Assembly (NCBI GenBank): GCA_003646815.1
Contig: QMLQ01000003.1
Location: forward strand, 1 to 39,063
DNA length: 39,063 bases
Origin: Deltaproteobacteria bacterium
Lineage (GTDB): Bacteria; Desulfobacterota; DSM-4660; Desulfatiglandales; Desulfatiglandaceae
Direction: 5' to 3'
Within the stretch, counting starts at the first letter, position 1. Every line of letters begins with the position of its first letter. Shown one piece after another: positions 7,718 through 31,543 of this stretch. Made by a program: the position numbers and the translations under genes. A model generated the notes under the pieces. The model was not told where the DNA came from. It did no database searches and worked only from the letters and a program-made list of their open reading frames with translations.

Positions 7718-8728
7718 ATGCATTCGGAGCAAATCGCGCTTGATCACGGGAGTGGCGGGGAAGCCTCCGCCGAGTTGGTGGAAAAGTTCTTTCTCCCTAT
7801 CCTGGACAACCCCTTTCTTCGGGAACTGGATGACAGCGCCGTTGTATCATTAAACGGGGAGAAGGTAGCGATGACCACGGACAGCTATGTGGTAGATCCC
7901 ATTTTTTTCCCTGGAGGCAACATAGGAAGCCTTGCCGTTCATGGGACTGTAAACGATCTTTCCATGCAAGGCGCCCAACCCCTCTATCTGACTCTGGGCC
8001 TTATCCTCGAGGAGGGCCTGCCCTTTGAAGACCTCCAAAAAGTCATGGAGGGTGTTGCCCAGGCAAGCAAAGAGAGTTCCATCAAGATTGTAGCCGGAGA
8101 CACAAAAGTAGTATCAAAGGGCCATGTTGACAAGCTGTTCATCAACACGGCCGGAGTAGGGCTCATCCCTCCCGCCATCAATGTGAGTGCCGGCAATGCC
8201 AGGCCGGGAGATGTGGTTCTCATCAACGGAAACATCGCCGACCATGGTATCGCCATTCTTACCCAGCGTGAAGGACTGCACTTTCAGTCCTCTATCAGGA
8301 GCGATTCCGCTCCCCTCAACGGGCTGGTGTCAGCCATGCTCCACGTATGCCCAGAGGTGCACGTCCTGCGTGATCCCACCCGTGGAGGAGTGGCCACGGC
8401 CTTGAACGAAATAGCAAGCCGGTCCAATGTCGCTGTTCAGCTTTACGAGGAACGGGTACCCATATCAGATCCAGTGCGGTCCGCCTGTGAAATGCTCGGG
8501 CTTGATCCTCTTTATGTGGCCAATGAAGGGAAGTGCCTCACCATCCTCCCCAGGAAACATGGGGAGGCTGTGCTCAAAGCCATGAAACATCATCCATATG
8601 GCGCGGGCGCAACTATGATCGGAGAAGTCCTGGAAAGCCCCCAGGGAAGGGTCCTCCTGAAAACACAGGTCGGCGGAACACGCATCCTCTCCACCTTGAC
8701 CGGAGCACAACTACCCAGGATTTGCTGA
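7718..8728 (+). CDS. hypE: hydrogenase maturation protein HypE
   Basis: LDHGSGGEASAELVEKFFLP, DDSAVV, TDSYVVDPIFFPGGNIGSLAVHGTVNDLSMQGA, C-terminal PRIC. ATG at 7718 preceded by ATTGGAGG. Confidence 0.93.
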   Translation: MHSEQIALDHGSGGEASAELVEKFFLPILDNPFLRELDDSAVVSLNGEKVAMTTDSYVVDPIFFPGGNIGSLAVHGTVNDLSMQGAQPLYLTLGLILEEGLPFEDLQKVMEGVAQASKESSIKIVAGDTKVVSKGHVDKLFINTAGVGLIPPAINVSAGNARPGDVVLINGNIADHGIAILTQREGLHFQSSIRSDSAPLNGLVSAMLHVCPEVHVLRDPTRGGVATALNEIASRSNVAVQLYEERVPISDPVRSACEMLGLDPLYVANEGKCLTILPRKHGEAVLKAMKHHPYGAGATMIGEVLESPQGRVLLKTQVGGTRILSTLTGAQLPRIC

Positions 8729-9652
8729 AGGAAGTGAGAGTTCAATCAACCGGTCGAGGAGTGCCGACATGGCAAGACCCGCAGCACTTGCTGCCCGTGG
8801 AAAAAGGCTGTTTTCGGTCATCCCCGGTATGGTGTTTGTTTCAAGCATATAGATGTCTTCGCCGCTGACAATCATATCGGTCCTGCTCCATGCCTTGCAC
8901 TGCAGGGCATGGTGAGCTACCTTTGCACAATCCCTCAGCCTTTCGGCAATCGTTTCATCCAGGTCCGCTGGGCATATTTCGTTGGTCGCACCGGAGGTAT
9001 ACTTTGCCTCATAGTCAAAAAAATCATATGCGGCAGTGGGTACAATCTCAATGAGCGGCAAGGTCTCAAGGTCCCGGTTCCCGGTTACACAGCAGGTAAT
9101 CTCCCTGCCGCCTATGTATTCTTCCAGCATGACCTCGTCATCATAGAGCAACGCTTCTTTTATCCCTGCCAGGAGCGACTCTTCCGAATCACAGATGGAA
9201 ATGCCGAGGCTTGACCCTTCGGCAATGGGTTTCACCACTACTTTCCCACCAAAACTTTCCAAAAAGGCCCGTCCCTGAATTTTTTCTCCTCGTCTCCGGA
9301 TATGAAACCGTGGAACCTTCAACCCGACACCTTGGTAGAGATACTTGGTTATCTTCTTATTCAGGGCCATGGAACTGGAGAGCACCCCTGACCCCACGTA
9401 CGGAATACCGAGGAGATCGAGAAATCCCTGAATACGCCCATCTTCTCCCATCTTTCCATGGAGCAGGATGAAGGCCAGGTCAATGTTATCTTTATGTTCC
9501 AGGAGGGTCCCCAGGTGGTCTTTGGGATCATACAGCTCAACGTCATACCGCTCTTTGTCCAGAGCATCATACACCGTCTTCCCGCTTCCCAGCGATACCT
9601 CTCTCTCCCCGGACCACCCCCCCGCCAGAACCACTATCTTCTTTTTTCCCAT
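8711..9652 (-). CDS. ddl: D-alanine--D-alanine ligase
   Basis: VLAGGWSGEREVSLGSG, LHGKMGEDGRIQGFLDLLGIPYVGSGVLSSSMALNK, VVKPIAEGSSLG, ETNTIPGMTENSLFPRAASAAG. Confidence 0.95.
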   Translation of the reverse strand: MGKKKIVVLAGGWSGEREVSLGSGKTVYDALDKERYDVELYDPKDHLGTLLEHKDNIDLAFILLHGKMGEDGRIQGFLDLLGIPYVGSGVLSSSMALNKKITKYLYQGVGLKVPRFHIRRRGEKIQGRAFLESFGGKVVVKPIAEGSSLGISICDSEESLLAGIKEALLYDDEVMLEEYIGGREITCCVTGNRDLETLPLIEIVPTAAYDFFDYEAKYTSGATNEICPADLDETIAERLRDCAKVAHHALQCKAWSRTDMIVSGEDIYMLETNTIPGMTENSLFPRAASAAGLAMSALLDRLIELSLPSANPG

Positions 9653-9903
9653 GCTCCTGCTCCCCAAAAAAATTATTTTTTTCTTTTCCTCAAAAAATCT
9701 CCCCTGGTTTTTTCCACCGGAACCGGCTCAAAGGATTATGCTCTGATTCGGTATGCTTCCGGGTTGATGCAAAATCTTTGCCTGATTCAATGTGGCTCTC
9801 AAAACCTCCTCAAGAGCCGGAAAAATTGACAGGAAAATTTGAAATTATGGCAATTTTCATCGTTTTTGCGAGAAAAAAGCAGATCTCAAATGTGACATTT
9901 TTT

Positions 9904-9992
9904 TTACACAAATCTCTTTCTTCCAATAATATGTTGATATCACGACCAAACTTACGCATCAAATTTTTCTTTGTCAAACAGGCAGTTACACA
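9904..9992. other. AT-rich upstream region of the divergent dnaA with two TTACACA words
   Basis: TTACACA at 9904-9910 and 9986-9992 in an AT-rich noncoding stretch; no canonical TTATCCACA seen. Confidence 0.25.
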
Positions 9993-10162
9993 GAAGCAGG
10001 GAAATTAACTCGTAATATATGTATGTTAGCATCTGTCAAAAAAGGGAGTCAACCTAAATTACCGCTCTCCGCAATACCTTTTGACAGCGGGCCCGGATTT
10101 CAGTAAAAGCCCTTCTGTCAGTCTTGAAAATCAAACCCGTCACAATGCACCAATCTCCAGCA

Positions 10163-10178
10163 AGTTCAAAAGTTCAAA
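10163..10178 (+). repeat. tandem 8-bp direct repeat AGTTCAAA x2 just upstream of the dnaA-like RBS
   Basis: AGTTCAAAAGTTCAAA directly read, 15 nt before the ATG at 10194. Confidence 0.7.
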
Positions 10179-10193
10179 GGGAGTCATAATTTT

Positions 10194-11543
10194 ATGGAAG
10201 CCATTTGGGAAGGGGTGAAAGAACAAATAAAAGCGGAACTGTCCCAATCAAGCTTCTCCCTCTGGATAAAACCACTGACGTTTTCAGAAAAAAAGGACGG
10301 CACCGTTGTGCTCGCCTGCCCAAACAAGTTTTCAAAAAAATGGGTTACCGAAAATTATGCGGATCTGATCCAGGCAAAACTCCGTTCCGCGGCCGGCATT
10401 GATTGCGCTATCGGCTTTAAGGTTGCGCGCATCAAGAGGAAGGTTCTTCCGCCCCCTCTCGTGGCAAACGAAGGGCAGCTCCTGCTCCTGGATGTGCCGG
10501 GGAAACGAAACAACGGCCACAGGAAACTCAACACAAACTACACATTTGACCGCTTTGTGGTTGGTCGTTCCAATGAATTTGCGTACTCAGCGTCTAAAGC
10601 CCTGGCTGAGGGAGGCACATGGAATTACCATTCGCTGCTCATGCTTGCAAACACAGGCTTGGGGAAAAGTCACCTCTCCCAGGCTGTTGGCAACGCCATA
10701 TTAAATCAAAACCCCGCAAGTCGTATTTATTACATTACCGCCGAAGATTTCACTAACGAGATGATCTACTCGCTAAAACAGGGTCGTATTGAGGCATTCA
10801 AGAACAAATACCGGCACTCCTGTGACGTCCTCCTCCTGGAGGAGGTCCATTTTCTCAGCGGGAAGGAGAAAACCCAGCTCGAGCTTGGATACACCCTTGA
10901 TGTCCTTGCCAATGAAAACAAAAAGATTATTTTTACCAGCTCCCTGGCACCAAAAGACATTCCAAGCATGTCCAAGGAACTGACTTCCCGACTTACTTCG
11001 GGACTCATCACGTCCATCGGCAAACCAGATTATGAAACACGTATAAAAATCCTCACCAGAAAGGCCCTGGAGTTGGGGCTTGTCCTCTCTGACGACATTC
11101 TTTCTCTCTTTGCCCGTAATCTCAATTATGATGTACGTCAGATGGAGAGTGCCCTCAAGTGCCTCAAGGCCAGAAGCGAACTCCTCAACGTCAGAATAGA
11201 CATTGACCTTGCAAAAGAAGTCCTTGGATGCCTTGTTTCCCCCGATCGAACCATCGGACTTAAAGACATAGAAAAACTTGTCTGCAAGTATTACCGCGTC
11301 GATCCTGAAATGCTTCGATCCAATTCAAGAAAAAAGATGCATGCCTATCCCCGAAATGTGTATCTTTACCTCTGCAGGCAGCATACGGATGAAACGCTTG
11401 AAAATATCGCGAGTTCTGTCAAGAGAAGCCATTCAACCACCCTTTATGCATCTGAGGTCATTGATCGAAAGATAAAAACAGACGCCCAGATCAGAAACCA
11501 GATCATGTTCCTGAACCAGAAGCTCGACGAAATGAAGAAATGA
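10194..11543 (+). CDS. dnaA: DnaA-like replication initiator, divergent
   Basis: Domain architecture of DnaA: N-term LSQSSFSLWIKPL, NYTFDRFVVGRSNEFAYSAS, ANTGLGKSH, LLLEEVHFLSGKEKTQLE, SRLTSGL, YDVRQMESAL, C-term YPRNVYLYLCRQHTDETLENIASSVKRSHSTTL. Several signature positions altered. Confidence 0.9.
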   Translation: MEAIWEGVKEQIKAELSQSSFSLWIKPLTFSEKKDGTVVLACPNKFSKKWVTENYADLIQAKLRSAAGIDCAIGFKVARIKRKVLPPPLVANEGQLLLLDVPGKRNNGHRKLNTNYTFDRFVVGRSNEFAYSASKALAEGGTWNYHSLLMLANTGLGKSHLSQAVGNAILNQNPASRIYYITAEDFTNEMIYSLKQGRIEAFKNKYRHSCDVLLLEEVHFLSGKEKTQLELGYTLDVLANENKKIIFTSSLAPKDIPSMSKELTSRLTSGLITSIGKPDYETRIKILTRKALELGLVLSDDILSLFARNLNYDVRQMESALKCLKARSELLNVRIDIDLAKEVLGCLVSPDRTIGLKDIEKLVCKYYRVDPEMLRSNSRKKMHAYPRNVYLYLCRQHTDETLENIASSVKRSHSTTLYASEVIDRKIKTDAQIRNQIMFLNQKLDEMKK

Positions 11544-12073: not shown

Positions 12074-13063
12074 CTATGCCCTACGGTCCGAATTCCCATG
12101 GATGTCATCCCAATTCAAACAGTCTGCCGGCCTTTTGCCCACCAAGCCGGCAAGCAGATTTTCTGCGGCCCTCAATGCCATCCTGCTCCTGGTCTCGACC
12201 GTTGCACTCCCCATATGGGGCAGCAGAACAACATTGTTGAGTTCTTTAAGTCCCGGCGTCAAGGCGGGTTCCTCTTCATACACGTCGAGCCCTGCACCGG
12301 CGATAGTTCTCTTTTCCAATGCCCTGACAAGAGCCTTTTCATCCACCACAGGGCCCCGCGAGGTATTAATTAAGTAGGCGGACTCTCGCATCATCGCCAA
12401 TTCTTTTTCGCCTATGAGATGGTGTGTATCAGGTGTCAATGGAACATGCAAGCTCACAAAATCCGCCCGGGAAAGCAGGCTTTCCATATCACGATAGGAA
12501 AGCTCCAATTCCCTTTCCTGCTCGGGAGCCATCCTCGTGCGGCTGTGGTAAAGGACTTCCATTTCAAAACCTCTTGCCCGCCGCGCAACCGCCTTTCCGA
12601 TTCTTCCGAGCCCGACAATCCCCAATGTCTTTCCTGAAACCTCATGGCCAAGGAAATACATTGGCGCCCAGAACCTGAATCCGCCCTCCCTTGTCATGAG
12701 GTCCCCTTCCACCAGCCGACGCGCGACCGCGAGCATAAGGGCAAAGGCCAGGTCTGCCGTGGCATCAGTGAGAACACCCGGTGTGTTTGAAACAGGGATT
12801 CCCCTTTTTGATGCCGCCTCAATATCTATATTGTCATAGCCCACGGCCATGTTTGCAATAACTCTCAGCCGGGGAGCATGCTGCAATAAATCATCGTCAA
12901 TCCGGTCGGTGATCATACAAAGGAGACCTTCTTTGTCTCCCACCATTTCTACGAACCTGCTCCTTTCCAAGGGACGGTCCTCTGTATGGAACTCTACAGC
13001 ATGCATCTCTCCCAGCAGGGACAGCACTTTCTCCGGAAGGTTTCCCGTGACCAGTACGTTCAT
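12074..13063 (-). CDS. D-isomer specific 2-hydroxyacid dehydrogenase (glyoxylate/hydroxypyruvate reductase-like)
   Basis: NMAVGYDNIDIEAASKRGIPVSNTPGVLTDATADLAFAL, LGIVGLGRIGKAVARRARGF, YLINTSRGPVVDEKALV, AGLDVYEEEP. Confidence 0.92.
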   Translation of the reverse strand: MNVLVTGNLPEKVLSLLGEMHAVEFHTEDRPLERSRFVEMVGDKEGLLCMITDRIDDDLLQHAPRLRVIANMAVGYDNIDIEAASKRGIPVSNTPGVLTDATADLAFALMLAVARRLVEGDLMTREGGFRFWAPMYFLGHEVSGKTLGIVGLGRIGKAVARRARGFEMEVLYHSRTRMAPEQERELELSYRDMESLLSRADFVSLHVPLTPDTHHLIGEKELAMMRESAYLINTSRGPVVDEKALVRALEKRTIAGAGLDVYEEEPALTPGLKELNNVVLLPHMGSATVETRSRMALRAAENLLAGLVGKRPADCLNWDDIHGNSDRRA

Positions 13064-29850: not shown

Positions 29851-30450
29851 ATGAAAATCCTGTCTGTGTCAGATTATGTGGAACCGCTTCTTTACGATCG
29901 CTTTGAACCGGGTCGCTTCAAGGGGGTGGACCTGATCATCTCTTGCGGAGACCTGCCGCCGGAATACCTCAGCTTTCTTGCGAACGCGTTTGGGATCCCC
30001 CTTTTTTATGTGCACGGCAATCACGATATACGGCATCAGTCAAGGCCCCCGGGAGATTGTACAGACATTCACGGACGGCTGGTCCAATTCAGGGGAATCA
30101 ATATCCTGGGGTTAGAGGGCTCTTACTGGTACAATGGCGGACCCCATCAATATACGGAGAACGAGATGCGAATGACCGTCTGGAAACTCAGGCCCAGGAT
30201 CTGGCTCAAGGGAGGCATTGATATGGTCGTCACCCACGCACCTGCGAGAGGCATCCACGATCAGGAGGACCGGTGCCACCGTGGTTTTAAGACCTTCCGC
30301 TGGCTCATTGATAAATATGCGCCAGGCGTTTTTGTCCATGGACATATCCACTTTGATGCGGCTGACACGTCTCTCCGCGAAACTGTCGTGAACGGGACCA
30401 GGGTTATCAATACCTGTGGATATTACCTCTTCGAGGTGGCCAATGGGTAA
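29851..30450 (+). CDS. metallophosphoesterase
   Basis: LIISCGDLPPEYL, YVHGNHD, VVTHAPARGIHD, GVFVHGHIHFD. Confidence 0.9.
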   Translation: MKILSVSDYVEPLLYDRFEPGRFKGVDLIISCGDLPPEYLSFLANAFGIPLFYVHGNHDIRHQSRPPGDCTDIHGRLVQFRGINILGLEGSYWYNGGPHQYTENEMRMTVWKLRPRIWLKGGIDMVVTHAPARGIHDQEDRCHRGFKTFRWLIDKYAPGVFVHGHIHFDAADTSLRETVVNGTRVINTCGYYLFEVANG

Positions 30451-31543
30451 TCTCCTTACCATGTTCAAGAAGGCCCTGAAACGGAACCATCCGGATGATT
30501 CGGTAAAGGACTTTGAGAAGGTCAGGGAAAAAGAAGAGTCCTTTGAGCCCATGAAACGGGGCATCCATACTGTAGAAGTCGATCAGATCGTGGGAAGCGT
30601 AGGCCGGTATCAGGACTTTGACAGCCGCTTCCGTCCCAAGGATCATCTCCCAAAAGACCGGCTCCTTGCAATCAAGCGTGCCATGAAAGAGGGAGCAGCC
30701 CTTCCACCGGTCAAACTTTACCAGATAAAGGACGAATACTATGTCCTGGACGGCAATCACCGCATTGCCGCGGCAAAAGCGCTTGGCTTGAAAAACGTTG
30801 ACGCCCAGATCGTAGAACTGATCCCCTCCAAAAACACCCTGGAAAACATCCTTTACCGCGAACGGATTGACTTCCAGGAAAAAACAGGCCTTTCCCACTC
30901 TATTGCATTGACAGAAGTAGGGCAATATGGCTACCTGTTAAAACAGATCACCAATCACCGCCAATTTCTTGAAAAAGCGGGATCGGTACCTGTTTCGCTT
31001 CAAGAAGCGGCAGCCGACTGGCACAAGACCATTTACAGCCCGCTTTATGCTTTGATAGAAAAATCAGGGATCATCCACTTTTTCCCCCAACGGACCATTG
31101 CTGATCTCTATGCGTACATTTCCTATCACCAGTGGGAACGGGGCCAGGCCAGGAAATACGGTATCGGGATCGATCGACTGATCCCAAAGGACATGGAGGA
31201 ATTTAGAAAAAAAATGGCCACTATGAAAGGAACTGATTACCCGGAAATGAAACGGGAGATCACTGCATTCATCCTCATGCGCGTCAAACCGAAAAACGAA
31301 TTCGTCGTCATGGAGAAGCTCTTTGCCCTGGACGAGGTGAAGGAGGTCCATTCAGTCCACGGCGATGTGGACATGCTGGTAAAGATCCTGCTTACCCGGA
31401 ACCTGCTTGCTTCCGATGCCGAAATTATCGGCCAGTTTGTCCATGACACGGTTATCCAGCTCCCCGGAGTGGTGAGCACTCAGACCCTGATCCCGGGGGC
31501 CTCCAGGATCAAGAGCCAAAACACCGACAGAGAGCCCGCTTAA
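30443..31543 (+). CDS. ParB/sulfiredoxin-like domain protein fused to C-terminal Lrp/AsnC ligand-binding (RAM-like) domain
   Basis: YYVLDGNHRIAAAKALGLKNVDAQIVEL (ParB/Srx fold) and C-term ITAFILMRVKPKNEFVVMEKLFALDEVKEVHSVHGDVDMLVKILL...VHDTVIQLPGVVSTQTLI (RAM-like). No obvious HTH. Confidence 0.75.
   Translation: MGNLLTMFKKALKRNHPDDSVKDFEKVREKEESFEPMKRGIHTVEVDQIVGSVGRYQDFDSRFRPKDHLPKDRLLAIKRAMKEGAALPPVKLYQIKDEYYVLDGNHRIAAAKALGLKNVDAQIVELIPSKNTLENILYRERIDFQEKTGLSHSIALTEVGQYGYLLKQITNHRQFLEKAGSVPVSLQEAAADWHKTIYSPLYALIEKSGIIHFFPQRTIADLYAYISYHQWERGQARKYGIGIDRLIPKDMEEFRKKMATMKGTDYPEMKREITAFILMRVKPKNEFVVMEKLFALDEVKEVHSVHGDVDMLVKILLTRNLLASDAEIIGQFVHDTVIQLPGVVSTQTLIPGASRIKSQNTDREPA

Follow-up and report, generated by a model that had tools for sequence, protein, structure and literature searches.

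The dnaA2 locus and its product

The window (the whole stretch of 39,063 nucleotides that was analysed) carries a full-length DnaA paralogue, and the assembly it comes from comprises 3.47 Mb in 410 contigs, with an estimated completeness of 93.5% and contamination of 7.7%. The window's copy (10194-11543) is here named DnaA2, and the copy linked to dnaN is named DnaA1; genomes carrying both are referred to as dual genomes. The features of the locus are listed below.

8711-9667, minus strand: D-Ala-D-Ala ligase gene (ddl), a conserved divergent neighbour of dnaA2
9668-10193: gap between ddl and dnaA2, containing a block, conserved among relatives, of DnaA-box-like sites (TTNTNNACA counts and alignment)
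9891-9899, minus strand: AATGTCACA, where relatives have TTTTCCACA (manual reading of the alignment)
9902-9910, plus strand: distal box-like site TTTTACACA, about 141 bp from the proximal site (alignment of relatives)
10034-10042, minus strand: box-like site TTTTTGACA, alternatively a -35 element (alignment of relatives)
10194-11543, plus strand: dnaA2, full-length DnaA paralogue with domains I-IV, 449 aa (Pfam and NCBIfam matches above cut-offs; short-loop DnaA clade)
10647-10670, plus strand: P-loop ANTGLGKS, residues 152-159 (translation and alignment)
10830-10856, plus strand: Walker B LLLEEVHFL, residues 213-221 (EE or DE in 18/18 dual genomes compared)
11136-11138, plus strand: sensor-2 Arg315 (kept in 18/18 DnaA2; Lys in 16/18 DnaA1)
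11421-11441, plus strand: recognition loop KRSHSTT, residues 410-416 (retains His413; E. coli-type DnaA has one more residue here)
12074-13063, minus strand: D-2-hydroxyacid dehydrogenase gene, a neighbour at some relatives' dnaA2 loci too

The product of dnaA2 matches PF11638 (DnaA_N), PF00308 (Bac_DnaA) and PF08299 (Bac_DnaA_C) above their cut-offs, with domains I, III and IV present, and scores 391 bits against the TIGR00362 equivalog (curated cut-off 343.9 bits), residues 5-444 lying on model positions 1-437. This agrees with an earlier note, made from the sequence alone, which had claimed the full DnaA architecture. The predicted structure has a mean pLDDT of 84.8, and its best structural match is B. 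subtilis DnaA on the origin (PDB 8btg, E 2.8e-27). The P-loop, the Walker B motif and SRLTSGL, which is without the Trp of SRxxWGL, are all present in the translation and alignments as the note had quoted them, and the arginine finger and sensor-2 Arg are retained, as it had also stated; these two residues and the P-loop Lys occur in all 18 DnaA2s of the dual genomes.

The Walker B DD of the DnaA family is absent from DnaA2, which has EE instead. Among the 18 dual genomes DnaA2 reads EE (16) or DE (2), so EE is regarded as a clade trait, and DnaA1 reads DD in all 18. As ED, DE and EE are usual across the DnaA2 clade in the alignment of relatives, the departure from DD was treated as variation and not as exclusion from DnaA. 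The second-position Glu of Walker B is the usual catalytic residue of AAA+ proteins. Judging from K158, the EE Walker B, the arginine finger and the sensor-2 Arg, DnaA2 is probably an active AAA+ initiator.

Two DnaA proteins in one genome

The earlier note had read the gene as a possible DnaA paralogue and had proposed looking for another dnaA by dnaN and gyrB. Such a gene is present in the assembly: DnaA1 is encoded at C36:11858-13171, followed by dnaN, gyrB and gyrA, and is 29% identical to DnaA2. This second, dnaN-linked copy, together with the separate clades into which the two proteins fall, bears out the reading as a paralogue. It is DnaA1 of C36, and not DnaA2, that adjoins dnaN at the flip in GC skew. 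The distance between dnaA2 and dnaA1 is about 10-12 kb in many relatives, where the two genes are convergent; in the window's genome they are on separate contigs. The family of the window's genome includes delta proteobacterium NaphS2.

The 7.7% contamination estimate raises the possibility of a contaminant contig, and dnaA2 might also be considered a plasmid or phage initiator, but either explanation is extremely improbable. A genome of the same genus, G001, has both proteins (DnaA2 94% and DnaA1 79% identical), and chromosomal neighbours of dnaA2 such as ddl are conserved among relatives, and on these grounds a contaminant contig was rejected.

A clade marked by a shorter recognition loop

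Phylogenetic analysis of 196 sequences using FastTree grouped 147 short-loop Desulfobacterota DnaAs together with a support of 0.58, rising to 0.986 once two long-loop sisters were included, and in a maximum-likelihood tree of a 90-sequence subset the short-loop group received a UFBoot value of 100, L234 being a single exception that arose independently. In the latter tree UFBoot was likewise 100 for the DnaA1s of the window's order, and in both trees DnaA1 and DnaA2 fall into different clades. A DnaA tree had been suggested in the earlier note, and it places DnaA2 within the Desulfobacterota short-loop clade as defined here, by loop length as well as by monophyly. DnaA2 thus belongs to a second DnaA clade that spans the Desulfobacterota and is recognisable by a helix-turn-helix loop shorter by one residue. 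The note had held that its reading would be undone either by close relatives with such a gene as their only dnaA and a verified canonical oriC, or by an alignment in which these residues are common in ordinary DnaA of the clade, and the second of these is what the alignments show; since the deviations of dnaA2 recur across many relatives, they are clade traits and not single-gene noise.

In the recognition loop, the earlier note had aligned KRSHSTTL with GGRDHTTV without gaps, and had concluded that the DNA-contacting Asp and His are both replaced. When aligned by HMMER to the DnaA of B. subtilis and of A. aeolicus, the DnaA2 loop has one deletion, such that R-S-H-S-T-T faces R-D-H-T-T-V, and MAFFT alignment of about 100 relatives gives the same one-residue deletion, so the ungapped alignment slips by one. 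The loop is therefore not of the GGRDHTT type (KR-SHST, one residue short), and compared with it the His is kept and Ser stands in place of both the Asp and the first Thr. The recognition helix starts at H413 in the predicted structure, and H413 is invariant among 25 DnaA2s; on these grounds, together with the gapped alignments, the His is taken as kept and the loss of its contact is ruled out, whilst the loss of the Asp stands. Many members of the short-loop clade elsewhere retain NRDH; sub-clades, that of the window included, have S, N or Y in place of the Asp.

Conservation of DnaA2 and DnaA1

In each of the 153 pairs formed by the 18 dual genomes, conservation is higher for DnaA2 than for DnaA1, with means of 56.5% and 40.1%. 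The sensor-2 residue of DnaA1 in these genomes is Lys in 16 of 18 and Ser in one, the Arg thus being lost in 17 of 18, and the DHST-type loop is kept by DnaA1 in most members. No DnaA other than DnaA2 was found in families f3-f6 of the order, nor was dnaA1 found at the dnaN loci of these families; cooC and dnaN, both of which flank dnaA1 elsewhere, are directly adjacent in one of them (L182). The genomes with DnaA2 only are mostly MAGs of about 68-93% completeness, so the absence of dnaA1 rests on the pattern and not on any single genome. From these comparisons, DnaA2 looks like the better-kept initiator of the two.

Location of the origin

In the dual loci examined, including C36 of the window's genome, a sharp flip in GC skew is seen where dnaA1 ends (3') or in the gap between dnaA1 and dnaN, and none at dnaA2. 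Skew therefore does not support an origin at dnaA2, nor, as far as it concerned the dnaA2 locus, the shifted origin entertained in the earlier note. Skew also flips at dnaN in three loci with DnaA2 only (L177, L178 and L182). At f4 loci the flip lies about 3-6 kb upstream of dnaN and not at dnaN, and distant closed genomes with DnaA2 only have no clear local flip at dnaA2 or dnaN. GC skew was unusable in G058, whose scaffold is pieced together with 100-N stretches, and was sampled coarsely in G032, with one discordant point at 1.68 Mb.

Upstream of dnaN there is an element in which repeats of the TTATTATTA type follow a box-like sequence. From shuffles, the combination of a box and TTATKA would be expected in 2.2 of the 25 dual loci and 0.76 of the five f4 loci; it was found in 18 and in all five, respectively. 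It also occurs in 25 of 36 dnaN-upstream regions vs 4.7% of other AT-rich windows at the same loci, and was not found at the dnaN loci of f3 and f5. The basal unwinding system of oriC consists of DnaA-boxes, a spacer and DnaA-trios with a middle adenine (PMC8287927). The element upstream of dnaN is alike by sequence, with a box, a spacer and middle-A trinucleotides, although its boxes deviate from TTATCCACA. This box-plus-trio element is likely to be oriC. In the five f4 loci, from genomes with DnaA2 only, the element contains TTTTCAACA in every case, which at a likely origin would represent a modest change from TTATCCACA.

Box-like sites between ddl and dnaA2

Upstream of dnaA2 there are 65 sites of the form TTNTNNACA, present in 33 of 33 regions, where 15 would be expected. 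Relatives share the block in the gap, with box-like sites about 141 bp apart, and some of the distal sites form inverted pairs with an exact TTATCCACA (L023, L032 and L045). The earlier note had seen no canonical box upstream of the gene, and indeed an exact TTATCCACA is absent from the entire window. The TTTGACA sites resemble -35 elements, and part of the box signal may accordingly be promoter. Besides the boxes, the gap of about 500 bp contains the motifs TAAC, GAGAAAA, ATCTYC and TTTCTTTGTTTTTTG, conserved in about 30 relatives, a motif content that exceeds the needs of a simple promoter.

When the dnaA2 promoters are grouped by the residue at the Asp position, the favoured 9-mers are TTTTCAACA for D/N, TTTTCGACA for S and GTTTCACAA for Y, but this grouping is confounded by phylogeny and a recognition code is therefore not claimed. 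The idea that the DNA recognition code of DnaA2 is genuinely new and matches its altered loop would fit the loop that is one residue shorter, the replaced Asp, the different 9-mers of the three groups and the TTTTCAACA at the likely f4 origin. It is nevertheless doubtful, given that the His is kept, that exact TTATCCACA occurs among the relatives' promoters, that the group comparison is confounded and that some TTTGACA-like sites are maybe -35 elements. The earlier note's suggestion of a recognition sequence peculiar to this protein is likewise weakened by the kept His contact and by relatives' boxes that fit TTNTNNACA, some being exact TTATCCACA, and what speaks for it is the modest change to TTTTCAACA at the likely origin of genomes with DnaA2 only. 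On balance, the box preference of DnaA2 seems only mildly shifted.

As a separate observation, GTTTCACAA/TGTTTCACA occurs 29 times upstream of dnaA2 in L063-L113, the group with the loop NRYHAT, vs 0.2 expected, and is a candidate DnaA box of Desulfobacterales.

Proposed role of DnaA2

The reading that we favour, and hold to be somewhat more probable than not, is that an ancient DnaA paralogue works at the dnaN-linked origin, having taken it over in the sister families. DnaA2 is predicted to bind DnaA-box-like 9-mers of the form TTNTNNACA, and would regulate its own gene via the boxes in the ddl-dnaA2 gap, autoregulation being the simplest guess as to these sites. Alongside or replacing the faster-evolving DnaA1, it would be loaded at the box-plus-trio element that precedes dnaN, oligomerise onto the trio repeats through the kept arginine finger and open the origin, and DnaA1 would then be a partner, a regulator or a relic. 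For binding, ATPase activity, initiation and autoregulation alike, we infer the function of DnaA2 from sequence.

Several observations do not sit easily with DnaA2 acting at oriC. The skew flips at the locus of DnaA1, whose DHST loop is mostly kept, and DnaA1 could be the sole initiator in dual genomes; the f4 flip lies some kilobases upstream of dnaN and the distant closed genomes are without a clear one; and the element pattern was not found at the f3 and f5 dnaN loci. It may therefore be that DnaA1 alone initiates in the window's family, and that DnaA2 is a regulator derived from DnaA, whether a transcription factor, a titrator or an anti-initiator, whose targets would be its own promoter and a regulon. 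The position of DnaA1 at the skew flip beside dnaN, its Walker B DD and its mostly DHST loop would fit such an arrangement, as would the ddl-dnaA2 gap having the richest set of box-like sites, but we consider it unlikely, as f3-f6 yielded no DnaA but DnaA2, which is also the more conserved of the two, and the sensor-2 Arg is lost in 17 of 18 DnaA1s. Alternatively, DnaA1 and DnaA2 may each act under different conditions.

A more specific form of the takeover by DnaA2 can be put forward tentatively, namely a hand-over at a fixed origin. DnaA2 would have replaced DnaA1, and DnaA1 (DD, sensor-2 Lys) would persist as a relaxed partner forming mixed complexes at oriC with DnaA2 (EE or DE, Arg), having already been lost in the sister families that keep the same origin.

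Comparison with known systems

As a rule, DnaA is regarded as an initiator present in one copy. Two dnaA genes are known in genomes of Desulfovibrio vulgaris and Chlamydiae, the second DnaA being away from dnaN, and family f42 presumably resembles the Desulfovibrio case. A second DnaA is therefore not new in kind, but in the window's order, unlike in those genomes, the second copy is the better conserved of the two and often lies near oriC. In the open-access literature, no paper treating a second DnaA in this phylum was found, and neither were the short loop throughout the clade, the decay of DnaA1 relative to DnaA2 or the dnaN-side element kept in families with DnaA2 only.

Paralogue replacement at a fixed origin is, to our knowledge, rarely open to study. 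As a single order offers dual genomes, genomes with DnaA2 only and a candidate unwinding element that is conserved, these bacteria could show which DnaA opens oriC, and also whether loop and box changed together. Origin prediction based on TTATCCACA should not be transferred to this phylum unchecked.

With B. subtilis DnaA (PDB 8btg) and TIGR00362, which it matches best in fold and in sequence, DnaA2 shares the domains, the P-loop Lys, the arginine finger, the sensor-2 Arg and the His of the recognition helix, but it differs in its shorter loop with Ser for Asp, in EE for DD, in having no SRxxWGL Trp, in being unlinked to dnaN and in being a second copy. The DnaA of Thermotoga maritima (PDB 2z4s) has the loop NRSHPVV, of the same length as that of DnaA2, and acts at a named set of boxes of its own, the tmaDnaA boxes (PMC10316083); it lies outside the Desulfobacterota short-loop clade, however, and its Walker B is DD.

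Two further observations were made. A DnaA encoded at G034:C191, with a strongly scoring dnaN nearby, is 34% identical to the window's DnaA2; G034 has another dnaN-linked DnaA, and the C191 copy is probably contamination of that MAG. In the window itself, the protein encoded at positions 30416-31543 (plus strand) gave weak AsnC ligand-binding as well as ParB_N-like matches, of which the ParB_N match falls below its cut-off.
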